Shown here in pieces: positions 45,428 to 54,718 of a stretch of 54,718 nt of DNA; the first letter of the stretch is position 1, and each line of letters starts with the position of its first letter. The DNA comes from an uncultured Eggerthellaceae bacterium (GTDB taxonomy: Bacteria; Actinomycetota; Coriobacteriia; Coriobacteriales; Eggerthellaceae), in contig CAJOIP010000006.1 in the NCBI GenBank assembly GCA_905234785.1, positions 1-54,718 of the forward strand, given 5' to 3'. The translations under genes and the position numbers were made by a program. The notes beneath the pieces were generated by a model that saw only the letters and a list, made by a program, of their open reading frames with translations, did no database searches and was not told the DNA's origin.

Positions 45428-46330
45428 CTAGCGGCTTGAAAAGAGCGTAAGAAGCGCTGTCATGTTATTGGCGCATTCGGCTTTCAAGTTAATCGTGATG
45501 CTTTCCCGCTCTGAATTACCAGACTGCGCCCGCTGAAGAAGCCGCATCATATCCGATTGCGCAAGAGCACGAGATTGGACGGCCAAAAGCCATATAAACC
45601 ATGCTTCGTATTGCATGTGGCGGGTTGTGCTAAGGTTGCGAAAGCGACATAGGAATCTCGATTTGCATTGCGCAAGTGCGTGAGTGAAAGGTGCGGCCTT
45701 TCGGTCTGATAGCGACGTTTCACCGCAATTCGCGATTAGTAGCGTTACAGCGCTTACGGTAATTGCCGAAATGATGTTAGCGAGGATGCTGGCAGCTTTG
45801 GGCGATTTCACGTTGTATTTACCGGCAAACGTAACCCGTTTTGTTGGATTATCAATTGTGAGCGTCAGTTTCTGGGGAATTTGCTGCCCCGTTGTTTGCA
45901 ATCGGGCAACTTCGTTTTTGATTATCGCGAGTACTCGTCCGCGCATTCGAAAAGCGGTTTTCAGGCTAACTTTGCATTTTTGCGAAATCTCCCTTAAGCT
46001 GCACAGCTCAATATGGCATTCTGCGAAAGTCATCCATGTTTCCAAGGGAATCTTTGTGCCTGATAAGAGGCTGCTTGAGTGGGCGGTAAAACTACGACCG
46101 CAGGTGTGGCATAGATAGCGCTGCCGCCCCTTTTCGTCGAAGCCTCGTTTCGTATGGCTTTCTGACGCGCATGCTGGGCAGGCGGGACTCTTGGCGTATC
46201 CGCTTTCGTGCTCAAGCGTTTCGTAATGCCCTTCTATCAATGCTTGCAGACGCTCTAAAGAAAGGTTGCGCTCACGGTCGATTAAAGCGCGGCTGTGCAC
46301 ATTCAGCCCTTTTGGAATTCGTAACAACAC
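45428..46330 (-). CDS. zinc-ribbon/HTH protein resembling the N-terminal half of an IS1595-type transposase
   Basis: A 300-residue protein starting at GTG 46330, where GGAGGAG is 5 bp upstream, a strong indication that it is translated. Residues 51-77 form a zinc ribbon (C51, C54, C74, C77: CPACAS, then YLCHTCGRSF). Residues 95-135 (PLETWMTFAECHIELCSLRE, ISQKCKVSLKTAFRMRGRV) form the HTH pattern seen before the catalytic core in IS1/IS1595-type transposases. The C-terminal 160 residues show no DDE triad that I can find. No terminal inverted repeats are visible. It could be a decayed transposase, a domesticated one, or a regulator. It lies just downstream of the tracrRNA on the same strand. 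Confidence 0.6.
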   Translation of the reverse strand: MLLRIPKGLNVHSRALIDRERNLSLERLQALIEGHYETLEHESGYAKSPACPACASESHTKRGFDEKGRQRYLCHTCGRSFTAHSSSLLSGTKIPLETWMTFAECHIELCSLREISQKCKVSLKTAFRMRGRVLAIIKNEVARLQTTGQQIPQKLTLTIDNPTKRVTFAGKYNVKSPKAASILANIISAITVSAVTLLIANCGETSLSDRKAAPFTHALAQCKSRFLCRFRNLSTTRHMQYEAWFIWLLAVQSRALAQSDMMRLLQRAQSGNSERESITINLKAECANNMTALLTLFSSR

Positions 46331-49700: not shown

Positions 49701-50929
49701 AAACGAGTCAGATCGTCAAATTCGTGCGACTCATGCTCGCCGAGAAGTACCCAGATACCGCCGTCGAATCCATCAAGGCGGGCCTCTCGCACCAGCTGCG
49801 TGAAAACCAGGGTTTCGTGAAATGTCGTGAGGCGAACAATTATCACCATGCGCACGATGCCCTGCTTGCAGCGGAGATCGGTCGGTTCATCAAGCTGCGG
49901 CATGGCAATTTGCTCGAAAATCCCATCGCAGCGACGAAGGCGATGAAGGACTTCATTCAGTCCCAAAGCGAGTACTACAAGCGAACGCACCGCATGCCGG
50001 GCTCCGCCTCGTATATCGTCGGAAGCTTCCTGACCTCAGGGTTCGACAAAGAAACCGGCGAAGTGTTCAGGGATGCTTGGGACGCCGAAGCGGAATGCGC
50101 GAGGATCCGCCGTTTCCTGAACTACAAGCAATGCTACATTTCGCGAATGCCCGAAGTGACAAACGGCGCCTTCTGGGATGCGACGATTTACTCGCCGAAG
50201 AATTCAAAGAAGGCGTTATCGCTACCGCTGAAGAAGGGGCTCGATCCCCAGAAGTACGGCAGTTACTCGAGAGAGCAGTTTGCCTATTTCTTCGTGTACA
50301 AGGCGTTGAAGAAAGGCAAGCCTGTGTTCGAGTTCGCGCCAGTGCCGGTGAGTGTGGCAGCGAGAGCTGAACAGGAGCCAGATGTTCTGCGTAGGTATGC
50401 GTTGTCGATATCGGAAGAGAAAGGGCTTGATTTCGTCGAGGTGGTTCGAGCAGGCATTTCTAAGTATCAGCTTATTGAATATGAAGGGGACAGGCTGTAT
50501 ATCACAGGTCAGAAAGAAGTACGTAACGCATCTGAGTTGGCGTTTACAATACATGAGGCCGAAGTCGTATCGAAACTAAGCAATGGGGATTTCCCATCCG
50601 CCGCCGATCTGGATGCATTATTCAGAACAGTCGTCGAGCGTTACGAGCGTATAGCGGGAAGACTTGGTGCCCAAATGGGCGTTGGTCAACTTTGGAAAGC
50701 ATTCGAACGCGCAACAGACGAGGAAAAAGCAAAGGCGATCATCAGTCTTATTTCCATCGCAAACGGTAATACTAATATGATTGATCTGTCAGCGGTCGGT
50801 GGTCCGAAATGCGCTGGTTGTATGCGTATCACGTTTTCCAAAGCCCTTACAGACTCCCATGCTGATCTAGCATTTATCGATCAATCGGTCACGGGCATGT
50901 TCGAGAGGCGGCAGCGTCTTGAGCTTTAG
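46793..50929 (+). CDS. cas9: Cas9, type II-A RNA-guided endonuclease
   Basis: A 1378-residue Cas9, the length of the S. pyogenes-like large group. RuvC-I has D18 in YSIGLDIGTGSVGWAV, the Arg-rich bridge helix is near 65-85 (RVPRGQRRRYDRRRQR), RuvC-II has E805 in NIFIEVTREED, HNH has H889 in YQVDHIIPQSYV followed by NRVLVHSHCNQSK, and RuvC-III has H1021 and D1022 in NNYHHAHDALLAAE. The C-terminus ends with FIDQSVTGMFERRQRL, equivalent to the SITGLYETR end of SpCas9. All catalytic residues are intact, so it should cut both strands. The PAM cannot be read from the sequence. Its last codons overlap cas1. Confidence 0.98.
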   Translation: MNLRNAARDGIDYSIGLDIGTGSVGWAVIDSNGDLLHFKKKPAWGSRLFPSADSASKARVPRGQRRRYDRRRQRLDLLQELFFSEMAEVDPEFFVRLRQSRLLPEDREAGHADYRWPLFNGSDFTEKDYYEKFPTIYHLRAWLMETDERADLRLIYLAFHNIVKTRGNFLHQDNAKLSARNASMKESVDKLCDAIEAWCEERELTCLPKRKKLCGVLEDGSLTRADKRDKKQLASLFSYGSDKEGERFAYETISAVLGYQASFGIVFGIEGEAYKFGLDNDEKVEEFLTVCPDDGVELFEAIQAAHSSYILAGILKGADGKTISYCKIGEYERYGEDLKTLKALVREYAPEKYDDFFRGSHYEDARWKKDYDPSKAQGYTRYNLGTSKLGYDDFAKEVRKLLGQAGAEGDPRYERMMQSFAEETFLRRLKTSDNGSIPYQLHLEEMQAIIDSQGKHYPFLLEDRAKIESLVTFRIPYYVGPLTTKNAPTNPKTGKTRFAWSERQEGKESAPIRPWNWEEVIDKDKSAENFIRRMTGTCTYLQGEPVLPRCSLLYEKFCVLNELNGARWSQDGDDEHRFSAVDRLLIYDELFKRGSVTYKKVEDWLTRHNRLHPHVRGGQGETKFESKLSSHMFFCKVLGVDDIDGANERMVEELILWNTLFEDRDILREKVKRAYGDRLSDDQIKQICKKRFTGWGRLSEKFLCGLKAEMTEGLKSIMDILEDGNPEGKHVGSAMVLMEILHDEHFGFEKLIDEVNLEKAKGEGGLSIEDLPGSPALRRGVNQATRIVDEIVGIAGKPPANIFIEVTREEDRRKKGKRTTRRYDGLKAALAELKEDGAVSLQELKAVSPDQLDDALSLYFMQNAKCMYCGEPLDIRHVMSGDQEYQVDHIIPQSYVKDDSFENRVLVHSHCNQSKTDALLIDPAIRRKMSDYWKNLLDAKLIGEKKYRNLMRDRIDEKQMRGFINRQLVETSQIVKFVRLMLAEKYPDTAVESIKAGLSHQLRENQGFVKCREANNYHHAHDALLAAEIGRFIKLRHGNLLENPIAATKAMKDFIQSQSEYYKRTHRMPGSASYIVGSFLTSGFDKETGEVFRDAWDAEAECARIRRFLNYKQCYISRMPEVTNGAFWDATIYSPKNSKKALSLPLKKGLDPQKYGSYSREQFAYFFVYKALKKGKPVFEFAPVPVSVAARAEQEPDVLRRYALSISEEKGLDFVEVVRAGISKYQLIEYEGDRLYITGQKEVRNASELAFTIHEAEVVSKLSNGDFPSAADLDALFRTVVERYERIAGRLGAQMGVGQLWKAFERATDEEKAKAIISLISIANGNTNMIDLSAVGGPKCAGCMRITFSKALTDSHADLAFIDQSVTGMFERRQRLEL

Positions 50930-51794
50930 AACCATCTTCATCGAAAGCCAGTGTCGCTGCTCTTATCAGGGCGGTTATATGGTCGTGCGCAAGGAAGACG
51001 AGACGTCGAAGGTGCACCTGTCCGAAGTGTCGTCTGTCATTCTGCAGACCCAGCAAGTCTACTTGAGCGCATATCTCCTTTCTGAGTTTGCGAAGAACAA
51101 AATATCCCTTGTCGTCTCGGATGAGAAGCACAATCCGGTGGGGCAGTACCTGCCGCTTTACGGAGCTCACAACACGAGCAAGCGCATCGTCGAGCAATTG
51201 CGGTGGGGTGAGCCAATAAAAAAGCGCGTGTGGCAGCATGTCGTGCGCGACAAGATCTACCATCAGGCAAGATTTCTTGAGGAGCGCGACTACGATGAGG
51301 CGAAAATCCTCCATGGGGCGATACCTGAAGTCCGCTCCGGCGATACGACTAACCGTGAGGCGCAGGCAGCCCGCATCTACTTCACCGCGTTGTTCGGGGA
51401 TGGTTTCAACCGGAATGCAGAGATTCCTCTGAACGCCGCACTAAACTATGGGTATGCCATCTTGCTTTCCATGGTCAACCGCGAGATTGTTTCGCGGGGA
51501 TATTTGACGCAATGTGGCATTTGCCATCGGAACGAATACAACCAGTTCAACCTCGCCTGCGATTTCATGGAGCCGTTCAGGCCTGCGGTCGATCGCTTGG
51601 TGGTCGATTTTTTCACAGGCGACTTCGATGTCGATACGAAGCGGGCGTTGGCCGACTTGGCGAACAAGGGGATGGTGTACAAGGGAGGAACCTATCGTCT
51701 TATCTCGGTTGTCAGTCTGTACGTCCAAGATTGTTTGAACGCCCTGAACAAGAAGATTGCCGTGGACGATATCGAGGCGTTCGAGATTCTATGA
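50919..51794 (+). CDS. cas1: Cas1, spacer-integration nuclease/integrase
   Basis: A 291-residue protein, start at TTG 50919 overlapping cas9 by 11 bp. The catalytic arrangement is present: Glu in NREAQAARIYF near 148, His in TQCGICHRNEYNQFN near 205, and acidic residues in LACDFMEPFRPAVDRLVVD near 213-231. It forms the Cas1-Cas2 complex that inserts new spacers at the leader end. The type II-A variant normally also needs Csn2 and Cas9 for spacer capture, all present here. Confidence 0.96.
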   Translation: MSFRTIFIESQCRCSYQGGYMVVRKEDETSKVHLSEVSSVILQTQQVYLSAYLLSEFAKNKISLVVSDEKHNPVGQYLPLYGAHNTSKRIVEQLRWGEPIKKRVWQHVVRDKIYHQARFLEERDYDEAKILHGAIPEVRSGDTTNREAQAARIYFTALFGDGFNRNAEIPLNAALNYGYAILLSMVNREIVSRGYLTQCGICHRNEYNQFNLACDFMEPFRPAVDRLVVDFFTGDFDVDTKRALADLANKGMVYKGGTYRLISVVSLYVQDCLNALNKKIAVDDIEAFEIL

Positions 51795-52129
51795 GCGATG
51801 ACGGAACGAGGGTGCGCTACATGCGCCTTATGGTGTTTTTCGACTTACCGGTTCTGACAGCCAAGCAGAGAAAGGATTATAGGCTGTTCAGAAAGTACCT
51901 CATAAAAGAGGGCTATCTCATGTTGCAGGAGTCGGTGTATGCAAAGCTCGTGACGAACGACGCAAACGCCGGCGCGGCGATTATGCGGCTGCGGAAGCAT
52001 CGGCCGCCTGATGGGTTGGTGCAGGTGCTGAAAGTGACCGAGCGGCAATACGAGACGATGGTGTTCATTACGGGGAACCGCGAGGCTTATGACGAGGTGG
52101 ATACCATGGAAGAGTTTCTCGTGCTATGA
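51791..52129 (+). CDS. cas2: Cas2
   Basis: A 112-residue protein, ATG overlapping the cas1 stop (ATGA). The ferredoxin-like start YMRLMVFFDLPVLTAKQRKDY near 10-30 with conserved Asp and the LQESVYAKLV strand identify the family. It is the structural partner of Cas1 in spacer integration. Confidence 0.96.
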   Translation: MSDDGTRVRYMRLMVFFDLPVLTAKQRKDYRLFRKYLIKEGYLMLQESVYAKLVTNDANAGAAIMRLRKHRPPDGLVQVLKVTERQYETMVFITGNREAYDEVDTMEEFLVL

Positions 52130-52812
52130 ACGTGTGCTTCACGGGGCTGAATGAGCCCATCATAGTAGGCCCTGATGCCGTGTCGGTTCTCGAGGTGCAA
52201 AACCGGGTTTTGTTTTGCCGCCTATGCTCGTCGCTTGTTTCCGAAAGGGGATCCGAGGCCGAAGAACCTTATACATTTTGGAGTGATGATGGCGAGGAGA
52301 TTAAACCAGAGGGGAGGATCCTGTTTGTTCTGAGTCCCTTGTCGTTGCCGTGGACAGATAAGGCTCTTTCAAATGGTCTTTCGGCAAAATTGGAGAGATT
52401 GGTGAATGAGGATGAGGATGCGCGGCAAGGGGTCGAGTATGCGTTTGCTTGCCTTAAATCACGGCTGAGCGAGGTGGCTCTTTCGTTAGAATCGGAATAC
52501 GCATTCGAGATCGATTGGGAATTGAAGCGATATCTTCGAACTTACGGGTTCGGTGTCGAGCTCATTGAAAATGAGCCGCTCCTTGACAAGTTGATAAAGT
52601 TTCTGGCATTGGCGAAAGACGTTTCCCTGAGCAAGGTTCTTTTGTTCGTGAATCTCAAGCTTTTTCTGTCGGAAAACGAGTTGAGAAAGTTCTACGAACA
52701 AGCTTTTTTCTCGGGGTTGAGCGTCCTGCTCATAGAAAACGTTCGTGATGGCGTATATTATGAGCAAGAGCGAAAGTACGTGATTGACCAGGACTTATTA
52801 GAGTCTTGGTAG
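52126..52812 (+). CDS. csn2: Csn2, type II-A adaptation protein
   Basis: A 228-residue protein overlapping cas2 (ATGA). Csn2 is recognised by its N-terminal strand pattern NVCFTGLNEPIIVGPDAVSVLEVQN, the helical middle (EIDWELKRYLRTYGFGVEL) and the conserved C-terminal strand KVLLFVNLKLFLSENELRKFY and SVLLIENV. Csn2 forms a tetrameric ring on DNA ends and is needed for spacer acquisition. Its presence makes the locus type II-A rather than II-C. The gene is lower in GC than cas9, suggesting the operon was acquired. Confidence 0.9.
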   Translation: MNVCFTGLNEPIIVGPDAVSVLEVQNRVLFCRLCSSLVSERGSEAEEPYTFWSDDGEEIKPEGRILFVLSPLSLPWTDKALSNGLSAKLERLVNEDEDARQGVEYAFACLKSRLSEVALSLESEYAFEIDWELKRYLRTYGFGVELIENEPLLDKLIKFLALAKDVSLSKVLLFVNLKLFLSENELRKFYEQAFFSGLSVLLIENVRDGVYYEQERKYVIDQDLLESW

Positions 52813-52864: not shown

Positions 52865-53429
52865 GTTTTGGAGCAGTGTCATCCTGGCTGGTAATCAAAC
52901 TCCGAAGGGCGAGGGCGACCGCAAGTTCCGGTTTTGGAGCAGTGTCATCCTGGCTGGTAATCAAACATGGAACCACCAAACAAAGACCTACATGGATGTT
53001 TTGGAGCAGTGTCATCCTGGCTGGTAATCAAACCTCGCGCTTGAGCTGATTCGGCTTTATCTCGTTTTGGAGCAGTGTCATCCTGGCTGGTAATCAAACT
53101 TATCCTTAGGCCACGCCAAGCGCGAGAGCGTTTTGGAGCAGTGTCATCCTGGCTGGTAATCAAACAGGGAGTGGCATGAAACGGCGGCGAACGCCGTTTT
53201 GGAGCAGTGTCATCCTGGCTGGTAATCAAACCCGGCTCGTCTGGAACACGCCGTATGCCAAGTTTTGGAGCAGTGTCATCCTGGCTGGTAATCAAACTCC
53301 AGAATGCGACATTCGGACGCGGTTCTAGTTTTGGAGCAGTGTCATCCTGGCTGGTAATCAAACATTCCAGTCGGGGAAATCATCAGGCAAACCGTTTTGG
53401 AGCAGTGTCATCCTGGCTGGTAATCAAAC
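52865..53429 (+). CRISPR. CRISPR array, leader-proximal part (9 repeats, 8 spacers)
   Basis: Repeats start at 52865, 52931, 52998, 53064, 53130, 53196, 53262, 53328 and 53394, each 36 bp and identical (beginning GTTTTGGAGCAGTGTC, ending GGCTGGTAATCAAAC). Spacers are 30 bp, except one of 31 bp (52967-52997). The GTTTTNGAGC start is that of type II-A repeats, and pairing with the tracrRNA fixes the direction as plus. This part is next to the leader and so should hold the newest spacers. It ends at a 485-bp non-repeat segment. Confidence 0.98.
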
Positions 53430-53510
53430 CGCGCTTCTCTGCGCATTGGGCGGGTTTTTTGCGCTATCCCAAGCGAGGCAATTGTTCCCGAGGTGTCGCA
53501 CGAAAAAGAA

Positions 53511-53528
53511 ACCCCGCCGTGGCGGGGT
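53511..53528 (-). terminator. terminator of the array-embedded gene
   Basis: On the minus strand ACCCCGCC-AC-GGCGGGGT is a perfect 8-bp stem followed by TTCTTTTTC. It lies 26 bp beyond the 93-residue gene stop and inside the segment, so the gene is transcribed as a separate unit against the array. Confidence 0.85.
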
Positions 53529-53554
53529 GGGGAAGGTGGTGGTTTTCGGTAGCG

Positions 53555-53836
53555 TTACACCGCTAGTGCGTGGGCGCAGAACTCCGGGGATAGCTCGAGG
53601 TCGTATTTCTCGAAATGGTAGACGTCGCAGGTGTCCCACGTGAAGCCGCCGTCGCGGTACGCGCACCAGGATGCGTCGACTTCCTCGCCAGTGACCGCAT
53701 CGTTGAAGTGTCCGGCTGCGACGGCCACGAGCGGGAACTTCTTCAAGAACGCGAGTATTTCGCCCTTGCGGTCGTTCGTGGCGGTCTTCATCGTCCCGCC
53801 GTGCTTGTAGTCTGATGTGTAGATGCGGTTCGTCAT
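53555..53836 (-). CDS. array-embedded 93-residue acidic protein, unknown function
   Basis: A 93-residue protein with GAGGG 4 bp before the ATG. It is acidic (14 Asp/Glu against 9 Lys/Arg) and has no membrane or signal segment. A lysine-rich helix (DRKGEILAFLKKFPLVAVAAG) is followed by an aromatic, acidic region (DGGFTWDTCDVYHFEKYDLE) with three Cys in total. An in-frame Met16 is a second possible start. I recognise no family. It sits on the opposite strand inside the CRISPR array with its own terminator. Small acidic proteins near a Cas9 locus raise the idea of a Cas9 inhibitor, but nothing in the sequence proves it; it may equally be a captured phage gene or an unrelated passenger. Confidence 0.75.
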   Translation of the reverse strand: MTNRIYTSDYKHGGTMKTATNDRKGEILAFLKKFPLVAVAAGHFNDAVTGEEVDASWCAYRDGGFTWDTCDVYHFEKYDLELSPEFCAHALAV

Positions 53837-53914
53837 TTCGCCCTCGGGTGGAATGTCTTCATCATGCCCGTATTATCCCCTGGATACTCGCCGACCTCAA
53901 GGCCCCCGTCGGAA

Positions 53915-54718
53915 GTTTTGGAGCAGTGTCATCCTGGCTGGTAATCAAACCAACGAGAACCGCGAGCTCATTGACATGCGGTTTTGGAGCAGTGTCATCC
54001 TGGCTGGTAATCAAACTGGACGCTGCTCGAGTTCATATACCGAGAGGTTTTGGAGCAGTGTCATCCTGGCTGGTAATCAAACGGAATCGTTCGCATCGGT
54101 GGCACAGTATAAGTTTTGGAGCAGTGTCATCCTGGCTGGTAATCAAACCGCGAAGCTGTTCCTGAACTCGCTGTACGGGTTTTGGAGCAGTGTCATCCTG
54201 GCTGGTAATCAAACCTGGTTCGTCGGGGGCGGCGGCGAGAAGTCGTTTTGGAGCAGTGTCATCCTGGCTGGTAATCAAACCAATGCTTGTAGACCAGTGG
54301 TGATGGCTTCGTTTTGGAGCAGTGTCATCCTGGCTGGTAATCAAACCGCGAACGCGATCGCTTGAGCATCCATCGGGTTTTGGAGCAGTGTCATCCTGGC
54401 TGGTAATCAAACAGGACACCCAGTCGGTTTTCGCGGGCTGCAGTTTTGGAGCAGTGTCATCCTGGCTGGTAATCAAACGAAGAGTACGAGGCGAAGGTGA
54501 AGGAGCTGGTTTTGGAGCAGTGTCATCCTGGCTGGTAATCAAACCGATTCCAGCGGATGCAGCGCGATTACCCGTTTTGGAGCAGTGTCATCCTGGCTGG
54601 TAATCAAACAACCTTACGATAATAACACCTCCTACTATAGTTTTGGAGCAGTGTCATCCTGGCTGGTAATCAAACGCGCGTTGGCTCGTGCCGGCATCGA
54701 ATCCCGTTTTGGAGCAGT
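53915..54718 (+). CRISPR. CRISPR array, distal part (12 full repeats plus a partial; continues past the window)
   Basis: Full repeats start at 53915, 53981, 54047, 54113, 54179, 54245, 54311, 54377, 54443, 54509, 54574 and 54640, with a partial thirteenth at 54706. Repeats are identical to those of the leader-proximal part. Spacers are 30 bp except the one before 54574, which is 29 bp (54545-54573). These are the older spacers. The absence of a degenerate last repeat within the window fits an array that goes on further. Confidence 0.97.

Follow-up and report, generated by a model that had tools for sequence, protein, structure and literature searches.

A giant spacer in a type II-A array

The window analysed here, a stretch of 54,718 nucleotides from an uncultured Eggerthellaceae bacterium (assembly GCA_905234785.1, contig CAJOIP010000006.1), ends within an array of clustered regularly interspaced short palindromic repeats (CRISPR) that is adjoined just upstream by cas9, cas1, cas2 and csn2, the arrangement of a type II-A locus (Table 1). 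The spacers of this array are not uniformly about 30 bp long. Most measure 29-31 bp, yet a segment of 485 bp occupies one spacer position, and beyond a run of N follow four more that are oversized (327, 124, 1269 and 333 bp), all with perfect repeats on both sides; we refer to such inserts as giant spacers. No match was found between the 30-bp spacers of the array and any of its oversized segments. Both repeats bordering the 485-bp segment equal the 36-bp array consensus (GTTTTGGAGCAGTGTCATCCTGGCTGGTAATCAAAC), and the segment carries a complete 93-residue gene on the opposite strand, followed by a terminator-like stem. It contains no transposase and no terminal inverted repeat, and thus lacks the marks of an insertion sequence (IS) element. 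These observations bear out the initial annotation, which had described a gene with its own terminator, carried as cargo without an IS between intact identical repeats. Its picture of a single odd insert holds only in part: the segment is real, but it belongs to a class that recurs, with four more giants in this array and dozens in relatives.

Table 1. Features of the CRISPR locus and of the 485-bp giant spacer, in window positions
Feature	Position	Strand	Remark
cas9, 1378 aa	46793..50929	+	Cas9 REC, PI, HNH and RuvC domains
cas1 open reading frame	50919..51794	+	
Open reading frame holding cas2	51512..52129	+	Cas2 domain at residues 104-183
csn2	52126..52812	+	
Type II-A CRISPR array	52865..54718	+	Part within the window; the rest lies past the run of N and reaches the contig end (58252)
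Perfect repeat, left border of giant spacer	53394..53429	+	
Giant spacer, 485 bp, probable slice of a phage head-gene region	53430..53914		
Terminator-like hairpin downstream of the gene	53511..53528	-	Pattern match only
Complete 93-aa gene, putative immunity type	53555..53836	-	ATG overlaps the putative toxin stop (ATGA)
Last 26 codons and stop of a putative capsid-linked toxin gene, SDGGLEVGEYPGDNTGMMKTFHPRAK	53833..53913	-	Read from sequence; aligned to phage toxin ends
Promoter-like pair TTGAGG-17-GATAAT	53872..53900	-	Pattern match only
Perfect repeat, right border of giant spacer	53915..53950	+	

The promoter-like pair and the terminator-like stem of the 485-bp segment are commoner than in shuffled sequence. 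The window stops exactly where the run of N (G000:C6:54719-54957) begins inside the array, indicating that the part of the array beyond it was joined by scaffolding.

Phage relatives and convergent capture of the 93-aa family

The initial annotation had proposed searching for the 93-aa protein among phage and anti-CRISPR families. Neither Pfam, PHROG nor NCBIfam gave a match that would link the protein to a named immunity family, and single-sequence searches against phages, plasmids and viral contigs yielded nothing useful, but relatives were found in phage head modules. Across the 397 genomes searched in the order, relatives were detected in 13 others. A Streptomyces match (L020) was dropped because its genomic context does not match.

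In the prophage L096, the order of genes is an SPP1_portal gene, a 659-aa minor-capsid protein, the relative of the 93-aa protein (94 aa), a scaffold-like gene and a capsid-like gene. The 659-aa protein carries a Phage_min_cap2 domain (E 8.8e-49) and a C-terminal domain with the pattern RLLSC.TG...FAQ.LA..LG..V.AP, and its stop codon overlaps the start of the relative (ATGA). Viral contigs L105-L109 share this layout, with portal, a minor-capsid protein ending in RLLSC.TG..FAQ.LA..LG, the relative, scaffold and capsid. In all of these contigs, as well as in L096, L099 and L102, the homologue immediately follows the gene of a minor-capsid protein whose C-terminal domain is variable, and stands ahead of the scaffold and capsid genes. 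The same layout is known for the MuF polymorphic toxins of temperate phages, and it is the position expected of a MuF-type immunity gene (PMC5576092). Judging from this gene layout, the C-terminal domain of the minor-capsid protein would be toxic, and position and family together imply that the 93-aa gene is the immunity gene of a capsid-linked toxin.

The 26-residue tail preserved in the window aligns to the toxin ends of L096, L099, L102 and L095. Taken together with the ATGA overlap and the whole gene that follows, it indicates that the slice follows the phage gene order without a break, with the toxin removed and the immunity gene kept. As only the tail of the toxin is left in the array, the immunity gene is probably an orphan; the L096 toxin domain, the one variant used as query, finds nothing in the window's own genome at E values up to 1. 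The 93-aa gene is therefore best read, from its sequence context, as an orphan immunity gene rather than an anti-CRISPR or an IS passenger. The suggestion in the initial annotation that the protein may blunt Cas9, as an anti-CRISPR in the array it would regulate, draws on its being a small protein in a Cas9 locus. Since its homologues directly follow putative capsid-toxin genes in the head modules of phages, overlapping them by ATGA and taking the place of an immunity gene, we give this suggestion almost no credence. One relative, in G395 (L098:5300-6478), is flanked by two 108-bp direct repeats, 90% alike, that encode similar small proteins, and is perhaps part of an orphan immunity cluster outside any CRISPR array.

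Homologues were also present in two further arrays. In G342, a member of another family, a homologue 44-49% identical is flanked by degenerate repeats of the window array's type and is preceded by a short toxin tail ending in DGRVAIGDKKYDDDGERVTFHPQEQEGQA before the stop, again with ATGA. In G058, the repeats on either side of the homologue are of another type, and the homologue is accompanied by a tail ending in IFKPRI and a stop, ATGA and a terminator. The junctions in the window, G342 and G058 indicate that one immunity family recurs in three arrays, cut out in the same way each time. They demonstrate convergent capture of the 93-aa family, with the phage gene order conserved at the cut. 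An orphan copy without recognisable repeats (L097) is present in G340, from the genus of G342, and dN/dS between it and the orphan copy of G342 (L095) is 0.19, which speaks for purifying selection.

Distribution and gene content of giant spacers

The repeat was matched in 33 of the 138 genomes of the family, and a related cas9 in 32. A Hamming scan for repeats was used for the tally of giant spacers, which identified dozens of them in related genomes, single-contig genomes included. Many arrays are ordinary (L028, with 82 repeats, L036, L044 and L049) and others are rich in giants (L046 in G077, a single contig; L055 in G134; L062 in G131; L029 in G033; L064 in G030; and L023 in G065, also a single contig), with single giants in L037, L022, L024 and L066. 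Decayed repeats surround giants in L055 and L095.

These data bear on whether the giants are an assembly artefact, in which phage and array reads were joined through shared 30-bp protospacers. The genome of the window is a fragmented assembly of 83 contigs with an N gap inside this very array, which favours an artefact. However, the presence of giants in the single-contig genomes G077 and G065 makes misassembly unlikely as a general cause, and misjoining cannot explain why three unrelated arrays share an immunity family. Moreover, the five giants of the window's array share no motif after their first 30 bases, where one would be expected beside a protospacer, although the protospacer adjacent motif (PAM) of this Cas9 is not known. 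We consider an artefact very improbable.

In four cas-linked arrays, the giants are leader-distal, with a mean relative position of 0.82 compared to 0.51 under random placement. This clustering at the old end could also reflect a recombination route without Cas1-Cas2, by exchange between the repeats of separate arrays or on mobile elements, or by a recombinase using the repeats, as in recombinase-associated acquired interbacterial defence (rAID) islands or integrons. That some giant-rich arrays are found in genomes without cas9 (G131, G033 and G065) would fit this route. On the other hand, intact cas-linked arrays also contain isolated giants with ordinary spacers around them, every giant bringing one extra repeat. 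The array has no linked recombinase, and the form recurs in G058, where the repeat is a different one. We therefore regard a recombination route as unlikely. On contig 3 of G131 (L025 / L062), in whose genome no cas9 was found, a 32-repeat array of type V-A-like character (GTATTAAATTTCTACTTCTGTAGAT) adjoins the orphan, giant-rich array of II-A type.

Genes inside giants are found on both strands and include members of toxin and toxin-antitoxin families. Pfam matches include Ntox50, two papain-fold Gln_amidase toxins and Minor_capsid_2 in L029, HicA, HicB, HipA_C, HSDR_N and VG15 in L046, HipA in a giant of L024, a weak HipA_C in L062, Fic in L022, SocA_Panacea and Phage_scaffold in L064, and PhageMetallopep in L037, while the PHROG matches of giant open reading frames (ORFs) include at least three HicB-like members. 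In phage relatives of the papain-fold toxin (L073 and L076), the toxin forms the end of a head protein and a small gene comes next. Among viral contigs, no relatives were found of the protein of the 327-bp insert or of the L046 toxin. By our own count, which was not blinded, about 15 giants carry toxin, immunity or toxin-antitoxin families. A rough calculation gives 0.7 whole immunity genes expected in 54 giants if the sources were 40 kb long, and 2.4 if they were confined to a 12-kb head region. The comparison suggests, but does not prove, an excess of such genes in giants.

An alternative explanation for this content is a capture hotspot without selection. Type II-A systems sample near free DNA ends, and long fragments taken preferentially from near the end of injected phage DNA (cos), where head genes lie, would carry immunity genes as mere passengers. 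Several giants indeed hold pieces of head modules without an immunity gene, including scaffold and minor capsid genes and possibly the 124- and 327-bp inserts of the window's array. In contrast, HicA/HicB, HipA, Fic and Panacea genes do not belong to head modules, and no terminase or portal family was present among the matches listed for giant ORFs (25 of the 47 PHROG families). The cuts also repeatedly leave a whole immunity gene and a toxin stub, and the number of giants with such genes is to be set against the roughly 2.4 expected even within the head region. Given these observations, a hotspot on its own seems a rather doubtful explanation, on a par with the recombination route.

Other contents of giants were noted as well. 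The 1269-bp giant of the window's array contains a complete 314-aa gene (L021:3580-4524, plus strand, corresponding to G000:C6:56279-57223) whose product is EcsC-like by eye, with a weak SHOCT match. Similar small cysteine-rich proteins are encoded in giants of two genera (L021:2782-3012 and L065:6099-6377), a second family caught twice. A 397-bp giant (L037:3384-3780) ends in what seems to be the 5' part of a tRNA (GGGGGCGTAGCTCAGCTGGT...).

Proposed origin and retention of giant spacers

Based on the data presented above, the 485-bp segment is probably a slice of the head region of a temperate phage captured as one giant spacer, through untrimmed uptake and subsequent retention of immunity or antitoxin genes. 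In this scheme the Cas1-Cas2(-Csn2-Cas9) machinery would at times integrate a phage or plasmid fragment without trimming it to 30 bp first, and the repeat would be duplicated as in any acquisition. Most giants captured in this way would be useless and then lost, whereas those supplying an antitoxin or immunity gene could protect the cell against a toxin carried or delivered by a phage or plasmid and hence would be kept, even once the surrounding repeats decay. Previous work indicates that type II-A Cas1-Cas2 alone integrates substrates at unprocessed length in vitro, and that only a complex containing Cas9 trims them to 30 bp (PMC8034620); from this we infer that untrimmed fragments enter arrays in vivo at times. 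Integration by this machinery, expression of the captured gene within the array and its action against the toxin are likewise inferred. The broader idea, that CRISPR adaptation doubles as gene capture, with untrimmed acquisitions storing whole antitoxin or immunity genes as heritable protection at the protein level and the old array end serving as a long-lived library, we hold with about even confidence.

Several points weigh against a phage origin by untrimmed uptake. For none of the giant spacers was an identical phage found, and an exact-match scan using an intergenic stretch shared by phages returned no viral contig; without an identical source phage, the exact ends, the PAM and capture in a single step are not proven. 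Several giants, for example those of 124 and 327 bp in the window's array, show no immunity gene, the homologue in G058 has one in-frame stop, and the window's array stands in the fragmented, gapped assembly described above. In the literature read, no documentation was found of Cas1-Cas2 integrating inserts of 0.3-2.5 kb.

Compared with ordinary type II-A adaptation by Cas1-Cas2-Csn2-Cas9, which gives 30-bp spacers, the giants share the same locus, one extra repeat per insert and a leader-to-distal order, but these inserts of 0.2-2.5 kb hold complete genes and would likely be used at the protein level, not as guides in CRISPR RNAs. The MuF polymorphic toxins (PMC5576092) resemble the apparent source of the cassette, with a toxin domain ending the minor-capsid protein and a small gene directly downstream; the array differs in keeping only the toxin tail and an orphan immunity gene. 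Insertion of an IS or transposon into a CRISPR locus would likewise place an extra gene within an array, but here there is neither transposase nor terminal repeat, the borders fall exactly at repeats, and the contents are many and different. The rAID islands of Bacteroidales are arrays of orphan immunity genes with conserved short intergenic sequences and resemble the giants in holding captured, arrayed orphan immunity genes without a matching toxin (PMC12247911). Unlike these islands, however, the platform here is a CRISPR array with ordinary spacers, the genes are in both orientations rather than co-oriented, cas genes and a transposase-like ORF stand nearby rather than an array-linked tyrosine recombinase, and the immunity gene would derive from a phage capsid-toxin locus rather than from a type VI secretion system. 

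Spacers are generally taken to be short and non-coding, and no description of gene-bearing giant spacers was found in the full-text open-access literature, subscription papers not being covered. If the gene-capture idea is right, CRISPR adaptation would have a new function. Should arrays acquire and keep whole immunity genes, their annotation overlooks a class of genes, adaptation would be laxer on insert length than believed, and CRISPR memory would have a second, protein-based use against phage capsid-linked toxins. Giants could then offer a direct route to genes for immunity to phage-borne toxins, and a natural system for asking how type II-A systems control the length of prespacers.

The transposase-like ORF near the cas genes lies upstream of cas9 (300 aa, 45428-46330, minus strand) and shows a weak zinc-ribbon transposase signature (phrog_1191, phrog_25593).
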